From NCBI GenBank assembly GCA_024698005.1, contig JAILRW010000037.1, positions 1 through 51,499 of the forward strand: a stretch of 51,499 nucleotides of DNA, in the 5' to 3' direction. This stretch comes from Sphaerochaetaceae bacterium. GTDB taxonomy: Bacteria > Spirochaetota > Spirochaetia > Sphaerochaetales > Sphaerochaetaceae. Shown in pieces: positions 5,270 to 40,119 of the stretch. The translations under genes and the position numbers were made by a program. Position 1 is the stretch's first letter; each line of letters starts with the position of its first letter. The notes beneath the pieces were generated by a model. That model had not been told where the DNA came from. It did no database searches and saw nothing but the letters and a program-made list of their open reading frames with translations.

Positions 5270-5278
5270 TGAACACAG

Positions 5279-5307
5279 AAAAGGCCACCTCGTATGAAGT
5301 GGCCTTT
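5279..5307. terminator. Bidirectional terminator between glf and the hsp20 pair
   Basis: A 9-base-pair stem AAAGGCCAC/GTGGCCTTT with a 10-base loop lies between two convergent genes. Read on the minus strand the stem ends in TTTTC, so it mainly ends the hsp20 transcript. On the plus strand it follows the glf stop by about 10 bases. Confidence 0.8.
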
Positions 5308-5335
5308 GGTGTGTGTTACAGGAAACTCCTGTTAT

Positions 5336-6241: not shown

Positions 6242-6318
6242 AAATATAATAATTATATATATAGAAAGAATTTAAATATTTAGATAAACAAAATAAAACA
6301 TTACAGGTAATACAATAA

Positions 6319-6351
6319 GTGTCATTTTGATACACATTGTCAGAATGACAC
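6319..6351. promoter_or_regulatory. Palindromic activator-site array (putative UAS) upstream of the hsp20 sigma-54 promoter
   Basis: The 33-base element has 12-base outer arms, GTGTCATTTTGA and TCAGAATGACAC, that are inverted repeats with one mismatch, separated by 9 bases. It also reads as two adjacent small dyads: TGTCA-TTT-TGATA (centre about 6326) and TGTCA-GAA-TGACA (centre about 6344), 18 bases apart. Its centre lies about 120 bases upstream of the predicted start site, the usual place for an enhancer-binding protein of the NtrC class. No T-run follows on either strand, so it is not an intrinsic terminator, and the arms are not CIRCE. Confidence 0.6.
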
Positions 6352-6392
6352 CTATTTTGGGTCAAAAAGGACTTTTTATGCCTTGAAGAGTT

Positions 6393-7115
6393 TCAGGAAC
6401 CGGGACATATCGAACCAAGGAACTCTCTAAGAGTCAGATTTGCTATGAAATTGAAGTGAATCACATGGCTTTTTTCTGTAACGAGTACACCCTTTTCCCC
6501 CTCTTTCAGATTCAAAAGAGCAATCTGAGCTTCATTATTTCCATAGGAAACAACTAAATTCTCAGAAAACCTATTTGCATAAATAAGCAGAACCTCATTC
6601 TGCCTTTCATACCTCAAACTATAGCCTAGAGAAAGCAGGTGACGAATGATCAGCACTTCAGGATCAAAGCCATGATAGAAGTAAGGAATATATATACTCT
6701 TTGATTTATCCTTGTTCCCCTTTATAGGAATTAGCAAACCAGTAGACAGGAACTTTTCAAAGATTCCTCTGACCTTGTAAAAATCCTTTATTCCACTACT
6801 CTTCATCAATGACTTCAAGCTAAACTCTTCAAGAGGTCGAGTTTTCAATATGGAATAAAGGGCAATAACATTGGATGCATTGGCAAAGTCATCCATGACA
6901 ATTTTTCTGAAGATTATATGGTCCTCATAGAAAACATCCTCTCCAGATGTGAACTCATATACATAGAGATAATCATCGCAACCAGCCATAGAAACGGCAG
7001 CAGTATCTATAGAAGATAGCTTCTTCTCTCCATCAAGTCCTAGATATCTGAGAGGAGAAACTATAGCAATCTTCTTTGAAAGTGAAAGTAGTTCAAGAGC
7101 AAGTTTTTCATCCAT
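6393..7115 (-). CDS. Uncharacterised protein, possible winged-helix segment
   Basis: I do not recognise this 240-residue protein. It is soluble, with no signal peptide or membrane span. Residues around 95-135 (ALYSILKTR, then LKSLMKSSGI and FEKFLSTGLLIPI) look like a helix-turn-helix/winged-helix unit, and the C-terminal half is a beta-rich region. The start was placed at the ATG at 7113-7115 because the longer reading frame begins at a TTG overlapping the RND pump stop and would include the pump's terminator in its coding region. The Shine-Dalgarno sequence is weak. It lies between the efflux operon and the hsp20 control region; this placement alone does not assign a role. Confidence 0.6.
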   Translation of the reverse strand: MDEKLALELLSLSKKIAIVSPLRYLGLDGEKKLSSIDTAAVSMAGCDDYLYVYEFTSGEDVFYEDHIIFRKIVMDDFANASNVIALYSILKTRPLEEFSLKSLMKSSGIKDFYKVRGIFEKFLSTGLLIPIKGNKDKSKSIYIPYFYHGFDPEVLIIRHLLSLGYSLRYERQNEVLLIYANRFSENLVVSYGNNEAQIALLNLKEGEKGVLVTEKSHVIHFNFIANLTLREFLGSICPGS

Positions 7116-7158
7116 GCCTATATCTACACTCTCAAATAAAAAATTGTAGTAATAAAAA

Positions 7159-7183
7159 CCCCGCAATGTTTGAATTTGCGGGG
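7159..7183 (-). terminator. Intrinsic terminator of the efflux operon
   Basis: A perfect 8-base-pair stem, CCCCGCAA with TTGCGGGG, has a 9-base loop and is followed on the minus strand by TTTTTATT. It starts 7 bases after the RND pump stop codon and separates the pump from the unknown gene downstream. Confidence 0.85.
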
Positions 7184-7189
7184 CAATGA

Positions 7190-10100
7190 TCAAGCTTTGT
7201 CGTATCTTCCTGTTGGGAATTCTGCATCAAACTCAGAAAGCTGATTCATCAAACTCTTAGGATTGTCGAACCTCTTCTCTCTTCTCTTGTTGAAGATCAT
7301 ATACAGAGTTGGAGACAAGAGCAGAGTAAGGAATGCACCCGTTACAAGACCACCAACGAAGGTAAGAGCAATAGGTTGCATCATCTCTGCACCACTGCCA
7401 GGGAAGAAGGCCATTGGGACCATACCAAGGATTGTTGTCAGCGTTGTCATCAGAATAGGTCTGAGACGTGTTCTTGCTGCCATAAGACAGGCCTCTCTTA
7501 CCTTGGTCTTCTTTCTAACAAGCTGGTTTATCGAATCGACCATTACAATACCATTGTTTACAACAACACCTATGAGGGCGATGATACCGACAATTGAGAA
7601 GAGCGAAAGTGCTTGATCCATCCACAGATGAATGAACACTACACCAATCAGCAAGAGCGGAATGGTTGCAAAGATGATGAAAGGATCAATCATCGATTCA
7701 AACTGGGCTGCCATTACCGCATATACCAGAACAAGTGCCAGGACGATAATCAGGGCAAGGGTTGGTGCATACTCTGCAAAATCAGACATTTCACCGCTCT
7801 GGGATACTGTTACCCCTTCCGGAACAAACAGGTGTGCATCAAGGGCCTCATCAACTGCGGCCTGTACCTCTGAAGATGTAAGACCTGCTGCTGCAGATGC
7901 AGTTACATGATTTATCCTCTTCTTGTCCTCTCTTGTGATTGATTTAGGAGATGTTCCGATCTCAAATGTTGCAATAGAATCAAGTCTTACATAACCATCA
8001 TTCGCAGGGACCAAAAGAGCACCAAGCGAATTGATATTTGTCATAGAGCTATCATCCATAGTTACCTTCAAACTGTATGTAGTATCAGAAGAGAAGGTAG
8101 TAAGAGAGGTTGCGCTCTTGCCAGAAAGTGCATAGGTCAGTATCTGTGATACGTTGGACAGTGATACACCAAGGTCAGAGGCAAGGTCCTTATCAATGAC
8201 GACACTGATCTTAGGAGCACCATTTGTAAGGTCTGTATTTACATTTGTGGCCTCAGGGACATAAGTCCTTATGATCGATGCAATCTCATTGACTGTCTCA
8301 AGTGTTTCATCGATATCACTTGAAGAAACTGAAATATTGATTGCAGAACCAGAACCTGGTCCACGGCCTGCAGAATAGGTCCAGACAGCATCTGGATTAC
8401 CCTCAAGCAGAGGAGAACAGATACTCTTTATATCATTTACAGAGTACTTCTGATCTGCAATATCAGGCATACAGATTTCAATGGAGCCGGAATTGGATGA
8501 CCCTGCGTTGATCATTATGTATTCATAGGCTTCTTCAGGAAGAACTTCGAGTATTTCTCTGTAGACCTTGAATAGCTCCTCCTGTGTAACATCCTTATGG
8601 GTTCCTGCTGGGAATGTAAGGTTCATTCTTACACTGTCGTCAGTATCCATACGAGGAGTAAGGGACATACCTACTCCAGAGAACTGACCAAGGGAGAAGG
8701 CAAGCAGGAGAACTAACAGAACAATAAGCAGAAGCTTATGGGACAGGAAGTAATCCAGGACCTTAACATACCCTACCTCCAATAGATCTTCAATTTTTGC
8801 AAGAAAATTGTCGATAGCTCTCAGAGGGGCAAATTTGATAGGCTTCTGAACTCTTGTTGAAATACCCATAATTGAACCAGAGAGAGCTGGAACCAAGGTG
8901 AGTGCAACAAACAGAGAGACAACCAGAGAAATACATACTGTATAGATGAGATCCTGGAACATCATACCGATCATCTCAAGTTTACCTTTGTAGATGATGA
9001 GAGGAATGAATACACAGAGAGTCGTCAATGTAGAAGACATGATCGCATTGGTCATGTTGTGACTTCCGAGAATCGCAGAAGCGGCACAGCTTCTACCCTG
9101 TTCTCTGAACTTTACAGTATTCTCAAGGATAACAATAGAAGCATCAACAATCATACCGATACCCAGAATGAGACCGGACATAGACATTGAGTTTACTGTG
9201 ATATCCATGATGGACATACAGGCCAGTGTTACCAGAATCGAAATAGGCATCGAAAGAGCGATGATAAATGTTGTTCTGAAAGAGCGCAGGAAAAGGAAGA
9301 TAATAAGCGCTGCGAGTATTACACCCATGATTGCACTGTTATATACCTCGTTCATTGTTGAGGAGATCATGGAGGTATTATCCCTCTGGACCTTCAGACG
9401 ATAACCTGTTGGAAGTTCACTATTGATATCATCAAGTGAAGCATATACAAGCTTCGCAACATCTGCAGAGTTGGTATCAGAGTCATTGGAGAGTCTGAGT
9501 GTAATAACCTTCTCCCCATCGATATAACTTCTTCTTGAGTTTGTAGACTCCTCTACTACGACTTCACCAACGTCCTCGACCTTTATCTGAACACCATCGA
9601 TTGTTTTAATCGTTGTCTTGCCAATCTCTTCAAGAGTCCTGAATCTTTCATCTATTGTTACCTGATAGTTCATTCCCTCCTGGGTCAAAGTACCACCAGA
9701 GGACTGAATATTTCTTGCAGAGAGAGCAGATGTAACATTTGCGATAGAAAGGCCATAGGATTCAAGTCTGATAGGGTCAACAATGACCTTATATACGCTT
9801 GAGGTACCGCCGTAGACAGTTACCTGAGAAATACCTTCAATTCTCTCAAATAGAGGCTTGGCAGAATCATTTGCTACATTATATGTCTCCTCAGCAGTAC
9901 CAGGACCCGAGATTATAAGGGTCATGAAAGAAGAGCTAGAAGACGTATCAAACTGCATTACAGTTGGTGTATTTGCCCAATCAGGCAAGCTAGATGAAAG
10001 TCTGTTTATGACATTCTGAACATCTGATTGTGCATCATCAAGATCTGTTCCATATTCGAATTCAAGAATTACATTACAGCTAGAGGATGAAGCACGAGAG

Positions 10101-10345
10101 GTCATTGAATTAAGACCTGTAATTGATGTAACTGCATTCTCGATCTTCTTTGCTACCTGAAGCTCTACCTGTTCTGGGTCTACATCCTCATCAATGGATA
10201 CCATGACACCTATGATAGGATATTCGACTGATGGATAAAGCGCTATCGAAAGATTTGAAAGAAAGAGCGTCGCAACTACGATTATCAGGACAAAGACCAT
10301 GGTAATCGTGACTGGACGGCGAACCGATAATTCACTGATTTTCAT
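7190..10345 (-). CDS. RND efflux pump inner-membrane permease (AcrB/MdtB superfamily)
   Basis: A 1051-residue proton-driven exporter, the usual length for the HAE-type RND family. It has an N-terminal membrane span after MKISELSVRRPVTITMVF, a first periplasmic loop, a block of spans at about 330-540, a second large loop and a final block from about 860 to 1020. TM4 reads GMIVDASIVILEN, so the first proton-relay aspartate is kept but the second (VDD in AcrB) is replaced by alanine. The TM10 segment VNNGIVMVDSIN is the form seen in many non-proteobacterial RND pumps. It is the last gene of a TolC-adaptor-pump operon, 11 bases after the adaptor. Substrates are unknown; drugs, bile salts or lipids are all possible. 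Confidence 0.93.
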   Translation of the reverse strand: MKISELSVRRPVTITMVFVLIIVVATLFLSNLSIALYPSVEYPIIGVMVSIDEDVDPEQVELQVAKKIENAVTSITGLNSMTSRASSSSCNVILEFEYGTDLDDAQSDVQNVINRLSSSLPDWANTPTVMQFDTSSSSSFMTLIISGPGTAEETYNVANDSAKPLFERIEGISQVTVYGGTSSVYKVIVDPIRLESYGLSIANVTSALSARNIQSSGGTLTQEGMNYQVTIDERFRTLEEIGKTTIKTIDGVQIKVEDVGEVVVEESTNSRRSYIDGEKVITLRLSNDSDTNSADVAKLVYASLDDINSELPTGYRLKVQRDNTSMISSTMNEVYNSAIMGVILAALIIFLFLRSFRTTFIIALSMPISILVTLACMSIMDITVNSMSMSGLILGIGMIVDASIVILENTVKFREQGRSCAASAILGSHNMTNAIMSSTLTTLCVFIPLIIYKGKLEMIGMMFQDLIYTVCISLVVSLFVALTLVPALSGSIMGISTRVQKPIKFAPLRAIDNFLAKIEDLLEVGYVKVLDYFLSHKLLLIVLLVLLLAFSLGQFSGVGMSLTPRMDTDDSVRMNLTFPAGTHKDVTQEELFKVYREILEVLPEEAYEYIMINAGSSNSGSIEICMPDIADQKYSVNDIKSICSPLLEGNPDAVWTYSAGRGPGSGSAINISVSSSDIDETLETVNEIASIIRTYVPEATNVNTDLTNGAPKISVVIDKDLASDLGVSLSNVSQILTYALSGKSATSLTTFSSDTTYSLKVTMDDSSMTNINSLGALLVPANDGYVRLDSIATFEIGTSPKSITREDKKRINHVTASAAAGLTSSEVQAAVDEALDAHLFVPEGVTVSQSGEMSDFAEYAPTLALIIVLALVLVYAVMAAQFESMIDPFIIFATIPLLLIGVVFIHLWMDQALSLFSIVGIIALIGVVVNNGIVMVDSINQLVRKKTKVREACLMAARTRLRPILMTTLTTILGMVPMAFFPGSGAEMMQPIALTFVGGLVTGAFLTLLLSPTLYMIFNKRREKRFDNPKSLMNQLSEFDAEFPTGRYDKA

Positions 10346-10356
10346 TCTTTGCCACC

Positions 10357-11292
10357 TTACTCAACAACCTTGAGAGCAGAACCCTCAGTTACAGTACCCT
10401 TTACAATAACCCTGTCACCAACATTCAGACCAGAGGTAATTACACTTCTTCCCTTCTCTCTCTTGCCTGTGGTGACGATTCTTCTAACAGCCTTTCCATT
10501 CTCCTCAACATATACGCATGGTTCATTTAGATAGGTGCTGATAGCAGTAGTTGGAATCATAAGAACATCTTCCTCGATGTCTGTTGTCAAATTGAGAGTG
10601 ACATACATACCAGCCTTTAACCTCTCATCCTCTTCAACAGAGAGAGTTACAGTAAAGGTTCTGTTAGAAGAATTAACTGTACTGGAAATTGTCTTTACAG
10701 TTGCATTCATCTCTTCTTCTGGCCATGCTGCAGTTGTAAAGGTTGCCTTCATACCTTCCTCGATTGTTGAAAGGTATCTTTCAGGAAGCTTTGCTGTAAT
10801 TTCAAGTTCGCCTACAGATCCAACCTTTGCAATTGATGTAGAGGTAGTGATAGTCTGGCCAACATAGACATCCAACTCTTCAATTACACCAGAAAGAGAA
10901 CTGATGACTGGCTGTGCCTTGTACTCAGCACCAGCAACAGAAGGATCTACATATGCTATGACATCACCCTTTTCAACGCTCTGGTTCTTCTCAACGAACA
11001 GCTTTGTTACCTTGCCACCTACATCTGATGTGAGGCCATAGTTATCGAGGGTATTGGTAATCTCAGCTCCAATTGTAGTAATCTGGGTAAAAGTCTCCTT
11101 TTCCATGGTCTGGACCATGACTGAGATTTCACTTGCCTTCACATTACCACCCTGTCTCATATTCATTTTCTTATTTGGCTCACTATTTCCCAAAAGATTG
11201 CGGCCAACCAGGAAGGCTAGAACAAGAATTACTAAAACAAGGATTAATGTGACAATTTTGTCAAAGGATAGTTTTTTATTTTCATTGGACAT
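10357..11292 (-). CDS. RND periplasmic adaptor (membrane fusion protein)
   Basis: A 311-residue adaptor that bridges the inner-membrane pump and the outer-membrane channel. One uncleaved N-terminal span (about residues 10-31, VTLILVLVILVLAFLVG) anchors it. The lipoyl-like half-motif follows, with TSDVGGKVTKLFVEKNQSVEKGDVIAYVD and the matching SSLSGVIEELDVYVGQTI, then a beta-barrel domain and a membrane-proximal end with GLNVGDRVIVKGT. The alpha-hairpin between the two lipoyl halves is very short (about VDPSVAGAEYKAQPV), as in adaptors that lack a long coiled coil. It lies 17 bases after the TolC gene and 11 before the pump. Confidence 0.93.
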   Translation of the reverse strand: MSNENKKLSFDKIVTLILVLVILVLAFLVGRNLLGNSEPNKKMNMRQGGNVKASEISVMVQTMEKETFTQITTIGAEITNTLDNYGLTSDVGGKVTKLFVEKNQSVEKGDVIAYVDPSVAGAEYKAQPVISSLSGVIEELDVYVGQTITTSTSIAKVGSVGELEITAKLPERYLSTIEEGMKATFTTAAWPEEEMNATVKTISSTVNSSNRTFTVTLSVEEDERLKAGMYVTLNLTTDIEEDVLMIPTTAISTYLNEPCVYVEENGKAVRRIVTTGKREKGRSVITSGLNVGDRVIVKGTVTEGSALKVVE

Positions 11293-23577: not shown

Positions 23578-25238
23578 GATTTACCCTTCTTGATAAACTT
23601 CAGGACAGCCCCAATGATCAAAAGAGCACCACTGAGGTAAATAGAGACAAAGGCAAACAGATCTGGATGATTTACATAGAATGTATTATCTCTCTCAGAA
23701 CTGTAGACAGGTACATCATAAATGTGCCAGGTCATCTTGAACTGTTCAACAGGATCAACAATCTTACCAGTTGGCAATATCATACATGTGAGACCTGAAT
23801 TTGTACTTCTTACCATACTCTTTCTTGTCTCGACAGAGCGCAGTGTTGCAATTGCAGCGTGCTGTATAGCAGCCTCTGCACAACCAGACCAGCGGTCATT
23901 TGTCAAGTTGACAATAACTTCTGCGCCATTCTTTACAAATTCTGCACTGTGGAAGCCGAATGTGTCCTCGTAACAGATAGGAGTCGAGAACTTTACACCT
24001 GCTGCCTCAAAGACTACAGGTTCATCACCAGGGAGCCACCAATTGTAATCATTGGCAAGGAGCATCTTATAAAGCCAAGGAAGCTGCTTTTCATATGGGA
24101 AGTGTTCAGTGAAAGGAACAAGGTGCTGTTTTGCATAGCTCTCCTTGATTCTGCCTTCATCGAAAAGAATTACTGTATTGTAGTCGATCCTATTGAGATC
24201 ACCATCCTCGAGAACAGGTCCTTTTGTTGGGTCCTTAAGTACCCCGCGAGGATTACCTGTTATAAGTGGAAGGCCAAGCTCTTCACCAAAATCGACGAAC
24301 TCCTTGACAAGGGCTGCAGTCTTTTCATTACTTGAAATCTTATCAGTCTCCTCATAGGAGTAGCTCATATGCCAATCTACAGAAGGGATGAACGCTGTTT
24401 CAGACCAGACAACTACTTCAGGATCTCTTCTTATAGCTTCAAGAGAGAGCCTTCTAAGATTACTGAAGTTGCTTCTATATGTCTCGAGACCACCCTTCCA
24501 GGAGTCATGGTTGTGCTGGATTGTAGCAACTCTCCAGGTTCTGTCTGCCTCTTCGTTGGACCACTTTCCAACCTTTACGAAACCGAAAATCAACCAGATT
24601 ATGAAGAGAACAATATATACAATAGGGAAAATCCTATTCTTCTTGATGTAATTTACAATTGATTTATCCTCACCACAGAAAATATCTGCTACATAGCGAG
24701 CAAGGAAGGCCTGAGGGAGAATGAGCATGAATATGATGCCCCAGACGCCGGTAATCTCAGCGATCTGCATCAGAGGTAGGTATCTGTATAGGGTGTAGCC
24801 AATATTGCCATATGGATAACCAGCGAACCAGCTTTCTGCAAGGTATGCGTATGCAACCCAGATGAGAGCCTGAAGGATATAACCATGTTTTCTAAAGAAA
24901 CGATCTGCGGCCTTGAGGGCTAGGAACAACAGGACCATTTCGCTTCCCTTGATTATGGTTACAATCAAGATGGCAAGCTTATGGAACCCAGGAAGCCAAT
25001 AGTTAAAAAAAAGATAGAATGAAACACCGAAGATAAAACCATAGATACCACTAGCAGGTACTGAGGTGTTCCTGATTATTGCAAGCACTGGAATGAGTGC
25101 AAAAAAGGCTATAAAGCCGAAACCTTTGCTGGTAACGAATCCAGGAAAAGCCAATGAATATATAAATGCGGATAAAATTAATATAAAAACCTCAGAACAG
25201 TAGGTTCTGAGGTTTCTTCTGTTATAAAAGTTCTTCAA
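23574..25238 (-). CDS. lnt: Apolipoprotein N-acyltransferase
   Basis: A 554-residue inner-membrane enzyme that adds the third acyl chain to lipoproteins. Several N-terminal spans (to about residue 210) are followed by a periplasmic nitrilase-like domain with all three catalytic residues in context: Glu in VVWSETAFIP, Lys in YAKQHLVPF and Cys in TPICYEDTFG. A last span near the end re-anchors it. The start was moved to a TTG at 25236-25238, 20 bases past the HU-like gene, with GGAG 9 bases upstream; the only in-frame ATG lies inside that gene with no ribosome binding site. Even so, the HU terminator falls inside the first 20 codons. It is translationally coupled to cinA. Confidence 0.85.
   Translation of the reverse strand: MKNFYNRRNLRTYCSEVFILILSAFIYSLAFPGFVTSKGFGFIAFFALIPVLAIIRNTSVPASGIYGFIFGVSFYLFFNYWLPGFHKLAILIVTIIKGSEMVLLFLALKAADRFFRKHGYILQALIWVAYAYLAESWFAGYPYGNIGYTLYRYLPLMQIAEITGVWGIIFMLILPQAFLARYVADIFCGEDKSIVNYIKKNRIFPIVYIVLFIIWLIFGFVKVGKWSNEEADRTWRVATIQHNHDSWKGGLETYRSNFSNLRRLSLEAIRRDPEVVVWSETAFIPSVDWHMSYSYEETDKISSNEKTAALVKEFVDFGEELGLPLITGNPRGVLKDPTKGPVLEDGDLNRIDYNTVILFDEGRIKESYAKQHLVPFTEHFPYEKQLPWLYKMLLANDYNWWLPGDEPVVFEAAGVKFSTPICYEDTFGFHSAEFVKNGAEVIVNLTNDRWSGCAEAAIQHAAIATLRSVETRKSMVRSTNSGLTCMILPTGKIVDPVEQFKMTWHIYDVPVYSSERDNTFYVNHPDLFAFVSIYLSGALLIIGAVLKFIKKGKS
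25188..25214 (-). terminator. Terminator of the HU/IHF gene inside the start of lnt
   Basis: A perfect 11-base-pair stem AACCTCAGAAC/GTTCTGAGGTT with a 5-base loop is followed on the minus strand by TTTTATATT. It lies about 45 bases past the HU-like stop codon. It also encodes roughly codons 9-17 of lnt, so translation of lnt should compete with hairpin formation. Confidence 0.8.
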
Positions 25239-39345: not shown

Positions 39346-40119
39346 TTAGATTCTTTCGATCTTTATTGCTTTTCTTGTATCACAATCTATCTCAATGAGA
39401 ACACCTTTGATAACGCCATTACCTTCTGCAACTACACTCCTTACTGGAACCTGAGAAAGCTGGCGATGGATTGAAACTGAAGGATCAGACCCAATTACCA
39501 TATCCTGGACACCTGTCATCCCAATATCGGTTATATAGGCAGTTCCACCTGGCATTATTCTCTCATCCATCGTCTGTACATGTGTGTGGGTTCCAACCAC
39601 GGCGGCACAGAGACCATCGAGATAGAAAGCCAAGGACTCCTTCTCAAGACTTGACTCAGCATGCAGGTCAACAAGAGTTATGTAACCCTGTTTATAAAGC
39701 CTCTCAAGTTCCTGACGAGAGGCCTTGAAAGGATCTTCCGTGATAGGCATATCAACTCTACCCTGGACATTTACAACTGCAAATTTTATACCATTCTTTT
39801 CAAGGGTACATACACCATGCCCCGGAACAGAGGAGGTGTAATTGATAGGCCTCAATAGATCCTTCTGGCTATCGAGAAGAGGAAAGATTTCCTGCTTCTG
39901 CCAGATATGGTTTCCTGAGGTTATAACATCAATGCCCATCTGCTTGAAGGTGTAATAGTCTTCACATTCGATCCCAAAGCCCTGAGCTGCATTCTCGCCA
40001 TTTGCGACTACGAGATCTGCACCAGTTATCTTTGTAAGTGAAGAGAGCCCTACAAAAAGGGCTCTCTTTCCGGGATCTCCCGAGACATCCCCAAGCATCA
40101 ATACTTTTATGCTCTTCAC
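39346..40119 (-). CDS. ymdB: YmdB-family metallophosphoesterase
   Basis: A 257-residue phosphodiesterase (TIGR00282 type). The metal-binding residues are in order: D11 (MLGDVSGDPG), E42 and N43 (VANGENAAQG), N70 and H71 (TSGNHIWQ), the LVDLHAESSLEK His and GTHTHVQT. In Bacillus, YmdB hydrolyses 2',3'-cAMP and is encoded next to rny, influencing RNA turnover, biofilm and motility decisions. The same pairing is found here, with the start overlapping the rny stop by one base, so the two are translationally coupled. Confidence 0.94.
   Translation of the reverse strand: MKSIKVLMLGDVSGDPGKRALFVGLSSLTKITGADLVVANGENAAQGFGIECEDYYTFKQMGIDVITSGNHIWQKQEIFPLLDSQKDLLRPINYTSSVPGHGVCTLEKNGIKFAVVNVQGRVDMPITEDPFKASRQELERLYKQGYITLVDLHAESSLEKESLAFYLDGLCAAVVGTHTHVQTMDERIMPGGTAYITDIGMTGVQDMVIGSDPSVSIHRQLSQVPVRSVVAEGNGVIKGVLIEIDCDTRKAIKIERI

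Follow-up and report, generated by a model that had tools for sequence, protein, structure and literature searches.

The palindrome upstream of a pair of hsp20 genes in a Sphaerochaetaceae genome is very probably a sigma-54 enhancer, bound by an Rrp2-type enhancer-binding protein (EBP) that drives hsp20 and the gene of an RpoS-like sigma factor and that also controls itself, although no binding or expression data exist for the organism. The analysis itself shows a conserved site that is coupled to sigma-54 promoters, with two target genes and a further copy at the operon of the activator, and the orthology of that activator to Rrp2. The stretch of DNA analyzed here (the window; 51,499 nucleotides) is contig C3 of an assembly (G000) of 1.68 Mb in 169 contigs, and the nearest relatives of this genome are spirochaetes of the gut that share a GTDB genus with Bullifex porci.

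The palindrome and the hsp20 promoter

On the plus strand the palindrome at 6319-6351 reads GTGTCATTTTGA TACACATTG TCAGAATGACAC, and its two 12-base arms, paired at 11 of 12 positions around a 9-base center, are present as given in a preliminary description made from the sequence alone. An inverted-repeat search widens the arms to 17 bases that are 88% complementary (6314-6330 and 6340-6356). The two TGTCA-N3-TGAYA dyads 18 bases apart that had been described along with it are likewise found as TGTCATTTTGATA (6320-6332) and TGTCAGAATGACA (6338-6350), and the minus strand across the palindrome, GTGTCATTCTGACAAT-GTGTATCAAAATGACAC, resolves into two dyads with the same 18-bp offset.

How unusual is such a sequence? 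Taken merely as an inverted repeat, it is so to a moderate degree only, since it ranks third in the window, where other strong repeats are the short inverted repeats at 25187-25215, 40041-40068 and 5273-5314, and since its score is equaled by the best of 100 local shuffles. The bare 13-bp core TGTCANNNTGACA (TGTCA-N3-TGACA) shows no enrichment genome-wide, with 3 sites versus 4 for a control pattern, and for this reason a longer 17-bp site was derived. Both observations leave room for a chance palindrome. However, a palindromic matrix trained on other spirochaetes, with the window and its sister species (G006) left out, has the consensus TGTGTCA-WWW-TGACACA (TGTGTCAWWWTGACACA; information 19.5 bits), such that the conserved unit is 17 bp and exceeds TGTCA-N3-TGACA. 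With this out-of-sample matrix, window positions 6317-6335 score 20.0 bits, compared with 9.4 for the runner-up anywhere in the 51.5 kb and with maxima in 20 shuffled windows that average 11.2 and reach 15.0 bits. The palindrome is highly significant as a copy of a conserved site, and chance, which is also refuted by the footprint in the sister species and across the class, can hardly be entertained as an explanation.

The positions of the elements around the promoter are collected in Table 1. The promoter-proximal dyad is the strong one, and the proposed array of two dyads therefore holds only in part: both exist, but the distal one is weak and only half kept in the sister species. Relative to the expected start, assumed ~12 bp downstream of the -12 element, the dyad centers lie at ~-111 and ~-129, in agreement with the earlier placement of the palindrome about 120 bases upstream. 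This satisfies the distance expected of an enhancer (~80-200 bp upstream of a -24/-12 promoter), and the same range is observed in relatives. The sigma-54 promoter itself is one of five strict matches in the genome (control 0). The second hsp20 gene begins 18 bp downstream of the first and probably shares its transcript. The GGGTCA half-site scores -4.3 as a full site and so is no full site by score.

Table 1 Features of the hsp20 locus in the window
Feature	Position	Strand	Remarks
Main enhancer site, UAS A	6317..6335, core 6318-6334	-	GTGTATCAAAATGACACTT; 20.0 bits; in block shared with sister species; one of two genome-wide matches
Secondary weaker dyad, UAS B	6335..6353	-	18 bp distal to UAS A; 6.8 bits (main matrix), 11.5 bits (sigma-gene promoter matrix)
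Half-site GGGTCA	6359..6364	+	Kept in sister species; about one usual 40-bp step from UAS A
Sigma-54 promoter	6241-6226	-	TGGCACGAGCTTTGCA, TGGCAC-N5-TTGCA; serves hsp20 pair; start expected at ~6215
First hsp20 gene, 138 aa	5765..6181	-	PF00011, E 2.9e-25
Second hsp20 gene, 136 aa	5336..5746	-	PF00011, E 8.8e-22

Upstream of hsp20, the minus strand at 6393-11292 encodes a 266-aa protein without a Pfam match, an AcrB-type RND efflux protein and an HlyD-type adaptor. Could the palindrome instead act as an RNA hairpin, either terminating this RND-efflux cluster or forming a leader structure? The strand does fold better than shuffles (-15.9 kcal/mol, z -3.3) and the palindrome follows the stop codon of the upstream gene by ~40 bp, but there is no T-run in the direction of that gene, a terminator scan is positive on the other strand only, and the location is upstream of the expected hsp20 start. 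Moreover, one arm is changed in the sister species while the enhancer core is identical, and in relatives the site occurs as separate copies, all of which makes a hairpin very improbable.

Other elements were noted in passing. A possible terminator is the inverted repeat at 5273-5314, just downstream of the second hsp20 gene. Elsewhere in the genome, an intergenic consensus sigma-54 promoter between adenosine-deaminase-like and rlmE-like genes (locus L008, 1380-1640 of contig C46; promoter at locus positions 1501-1516) precedes a stretch of ~100 nt that contains a T8 run and folds into a very stable hairpin (z -5.3). The locus may encode a small RNA dependent on sigma-54; it lacks a TGTGTCA site, and a palindrome of the form CTGTGAA-N5-TTCACAG is located ~80 bp upstream. 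An Rfam search of the hsp20 and L008 loci returned matches at chance level only.

Conservation of the site and its target genes

Comparison of the window with the sister species places the main site inside a 27-bp unbroken identical block (TTCTGACAATGTGTATCAAAATGACAC), and the DNA between the site and the promoter is poorly conserved. For a wider comparison, hsp20 loci were gathered from 41 genomes and 80 named contigs, the collection scan using a narrower hsp20 alignment since the first one was too diverse. Most hsp20 loci of relatives have a sigma-54 promoter, conserved in most of those examined, with one or more copies of the palindrome 80-170 bp upstream. Phylogenetic footprinting, a check that had been proposed for the palindrome, thus finds the site conserved both in the sister species and in relatives.

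In a set of 100 non-redundant hsp20 and sigma-factor promoters, the strict form of the site occurs 45 times, versus 0 in 100 shuffle sets, and a site of at least 15 bits is present in 92 of the 100 promoters (0% of shuffles). These class-wide percentages are in-sample, the training promoters having been picked by gene and sigma-54 motif, which applies neither to the window score nor to cross-validation. In the latter, a matrix built from the sigma-gene promoters alone ranks all 81 of the hsp20 promoters beyond the 99% shuffle level, and the converse test succeeds for 18 of 18. Between sites, a lag of 40-41 bp is commonest (37 counted over 81 hsp20 promoters and 18 over 19 sigma promoters), and a lag of 18-19 bp is counted 15 times over the 81 hsp20 promoters. 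The matrix and these lags together meet the expectation that an enhancer be conserved, dyad-symmetric and often tandem. The hsp20 promoter of the window displays the 18-bp arrangement plus the lone GGGTCA half-site near the 40-bp position.

Which genes does the site accompany? An exact scan of the 41 relatives with a shorter form of the site yielded several matches a few kb from an NtrC-type activator gene, and downstream of the site at these loci come a sigma-54 promoter and its gene, which encodes ~291 aa and contains the sigma-70 regions 1.2, 2, 3 and 4. A combined pattern of site and promoter (GTCANNNTGAY, 72-102 bp, TGGCAYN5WTGCW) matches 48 places across the 395 Spirochaetia genomes searched, versus 0 for the reversed pattern used as control. 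Thirty of the 48 loci were examined; the site precedes the sigma gene at 17 and hsp20 at 11 (28 of 30), and the other two look like chance matches within coding sequence. The suggestion that a scan for such sites upstream of sigma-54 motifs would define a regulon is therefore borne out for pairs of site and promoter, which are specific to hsp20 and one sigma gene, but not for the bare TGTCA-N3-TGACA.

All 12 further Sphaerochaetaceae loci in which the sequence extends to the sigma gene have the order histidine kinase, EBP, DinG, GroES (on the opposite strand), UAS array and sigma gene, and in most of them the array consists of two or, usually, three sites at 40-bp steps. The sister species has two sites before its sigma gene; in the window genome this gene starts 9 bases from a contig end, and its upstream region is unreadable in the assembly. 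One genome (G138) has a site at the sigma gene (L264) but no activator match at the strict cut-off.

The candidate activator and its operon

A single full-length sigma-54 activator, a response regulator, and a single sigma-54 gene were detected in the window genome. The activator, on contig C126, combines REC, sigma-54 AAA and Fis HTH domains (Pfam PF00072, PF00158 and PF02954), and the order of its cluster is murG, cvpA, holB-like, histidine kinase, EBP and DinG. When the whole genome is searched for the 17-bp site with at most two mismatches, only two places are found (control 0), namely the site in the window and the short gap between secA and murG, which heads the EBP cluster. Sites of 16-21 bits occupy the same operon-head position in five other species of the genus. 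The preliminary description had advised a search for activator genes adjoining sites of this kind, and here the same genome carries the site at the head of an EBP operon. No sigma-54 promoter lies beside this secA-murG site, so its role there must differ; the EBP probably regulates its own operon by repression or by acting at a sigma-70 promoter, which is inferred and not demonstrated.

The absence of a sigma-54 promoter at the murG operon head, like the proximity of the palindrome to a chaperone gene, would also suit an operator of a heat-shock repressor or other regulator (HrcA/CIRCE-like or CRP/FNR-like) that lies near sigma-54 promoters by chance. The coupling of the site to sigma-54 promoters at enhancer distance (48 versus 0 for the control) and the frequent tandem arrangement with sites 40 bp apart argue against such an operator. 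The CIRCE consensus is TTAGCACTC-N9-GAGTGCTAA, which the matrix consensus TGTGTCAWWWTGACACA does not match, as had been pointed out for the palindrome itself, and a CIRCE/HrcA operator was rejected. We consider an operator of any of these kinds quite unlikely.

Of 248 Spirochaetia genomes, 247 have an Rrp2-type orthologue of the EBP, whose recognition helix, IGRKTLHRK, hardly varies. One alternative is that hsp20 is served by the same enhancer, with another sigma-54 activator bound to it. The sister species carries a second, paralogous REC-AAA-Fis EBP (contig C31), and since the assembly of the window genome is only 92.5% complete, a second activator may have been missed there. However, the paralogue groups apart in the tree and differs in its recognition helix (ISRRSMINK), almost every genome of the class has the Rrp2-type gene, and the site both heads the Rrp2-type operon and precedes a sigma gene a few kb from that EBP. 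For these reasons another activator appears unlikely, though somewhat less so than an operator, and the Rrp2-type EBP remains the preferred one. The palindrome had been described as a possible site of an uncharacterised sigma-54 activator; its conservation, its coupling to a promoter and its recurrence at an EBP operon uphold the enhancer, but an orthologue of Borrelia Rrp2 is not wholly uncharacterised.

Several further observations concern activators and sites of the class. Helix and site show no clear covariation in GTDB genus g28, where EBPs with a changed recognition helix (IGRKTITRK) retain strong sites, some leaning to GGGTCA. In the window genome, a 15.8-bit match to the enhancer matrix (TTGTACCAAAATGATACAA; 10780-10798 of contig C126, locus L093) is flanked by the DinG-like helicase and groES genes, whose 3' ends face it. 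In a 1.14-Mb single-contig genome (G100, locus L256), an Rrp2-type EBP with a slightly different helix (IGRKTLYLK) stands beside a kinase whose match is divided between two overlapping frames, and neither an enhancer site nor a sigma gene was detected within the 18 kb examined. The small genomes G196 (locus L260) and G218 of genus g31 have divergent activators only (~40% identity), unlike the rest of the class, and in G196 two EBP-type genes flank cvpA/holB-like.

Taken together, the following scheme is proposed. A soluble PAS histidine kinase, the Hk2 orthologue, would sense an internal condition and phosphorylate the Rrp2-type EBP, dimers of which would bind TGTGTCA-WWW-TGACACA sites 80-170 bp upstream. 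The bound EBP would loop to the sigma-54 polymerase and open the promoters of hsp20 and the sigma-factor gene, the RpoS-like sigma factor presumably extending the response in a cascade from sigma-54 to a sigma-S-like factor, and the EBP may control itself through the copy of the site that heads its operon. In this scheme, physical binding of the EBP, its looping, the stress signal and whether the EBP activates or represses itself are matters of inference. The inducing signal is presumably protein or general stress, as the targets suggest, but the actual signal is unknown. Sensing of protein damage, one of two possibilities raised earlier, is merely inferred from the hsp20 target; the other, envelope stress, finds no support, as the PAS histidine kinase of the cluster has no transmembrane segment.

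Comparison with Borrelia Rrp2 and other sigma-54 systems

Borrelia Rrp2 is essential and central to the tick-mammal cycle. B. burgdorferi has only two two-component systems besides chemotaxis, and Rrp2 is its sigma-54 activator (PMC12472547, PMC5846617). Identical plasmids identified two genomes of family f19 as Borreliella andersonii and Borrelia turicatae, and the sampled Borreliaceae each show only one activator at the cut-off applied; in view of the published role of Rrp2, this gene was taken as rrp2. The gene order murG, holB-like, histidine kinase and EBP is common to Borrelia and the window species, and in the tree the Borrelia EBP groups with that of the window genome, apart from the paralogues, with moderate support (88/93). 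Judged from these sequence comparisons, the EBP of the window genome is the orthologue of Borrelia Rrp2 and its partner kinase that of Hk2, which is a soluble kinase (PMC12472547).

Borrelia also has an rpoS-like gene a few kb from the EBP with a sigma-54 promoter (TGGCACAATTTTTGCA), and the sigma-54-promoted sigma-70-family gene near the EBP fulfills what is expected of a Borrelia-type RpoS target. The relation between the two sigma factors is unresolved in a tree, where Borrelia RpoS sits on a long branch; rpoS_proteo is the best NCBIfam model for both, each below its cut-off. No site above 11 bits was found in the 18-kb stretches around Borrelia rrp2 and rpoS, and no such palindrome lies upstream of rpoS. 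A promoter without an enhancer is consistent with the report that Rrp2 activates Borrelia rpoS independently of an enhancer and that its binding was not observed within 238 bp (PMC1976401). No DNA target of Borrelia Rrp2 was found in the searchable literature, and the signal of its kinase is reported as unknown (PMC1976401, PMC12472547).

The two systems are alike in their orthologous EBP and kinase, the neighborhood of these genes, the sigma-54 promoter before an RpoS-like gene and the soluble kinase, but Borrelia rpoS lacks the site, whereas most Spirochaetia loci examined have strong sites at the sigma gene and hsp20. We hypothesize, with only slightly better than even confidence, that the ancestral task of Hk2-Rrp2-RpoN was proteostasis or general stress, with Rrp2 acting at TGTGTCAWWWTGACACA on hsp20, the RpoS-like sigma gene and itself, and that the Lyme cascade arose from it by reduction, through loss of the enhancer and of the hsp20 arm, with the activator and the sigma-54 promoter of rpoS retained. 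The 17-bp site, its two conserved targets and the site at the activator's own operon, found in gut and free-living spirochaetes, provide a testable recognition sequence for the whole Rrp2 group, and the hsp20 and sigma targets suggest an internal stress signal for it. In the searchable literature, which mostly leaves out subscription papers, no description was found of the site, of a binding sequence of the Rrp2 group or of hsp20 as its target, and an earlier description is not excluded.

Sigma-54-dependent heat-shock promoters are known in E. coli at ibpB and rpoH. The likeness to Bacteroidota and Planctomycetota lies in chaperone genes under sigma-54, reported for both phyla in a survey; its text does not report the chaperone cluster as enriched in Spirochaetia, and no shared activator or enhancer was found named in it (PMC12316311). 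The present findings extend sigma-54 heat-shock control to Spirochaetia. In Desulfovibrio vulgaris, comparative genomics defined many EBP regulons of the sigma-54 regulome, some of them stress-related, and a text search of that paper found no hspC or TGTCA-type site (PMC4641369).

Sigma-54 enhancers and NtrC-type activators are well known, and the palindrome represents no new mechanism. NtrC autoregulates through a site at its own operon, and the spirochaete system resembles enhancers of the NtrC/glnA type in its palindromic sites 100-170 bp upstream, its tandem copies, the Fis-type DNA-binding domain of its regulator and the site at the regulator's operon. It differs from them in the sequence of the site and in its targets, which are heat-shock and sigma-factor genes rather than nitrogen genes.
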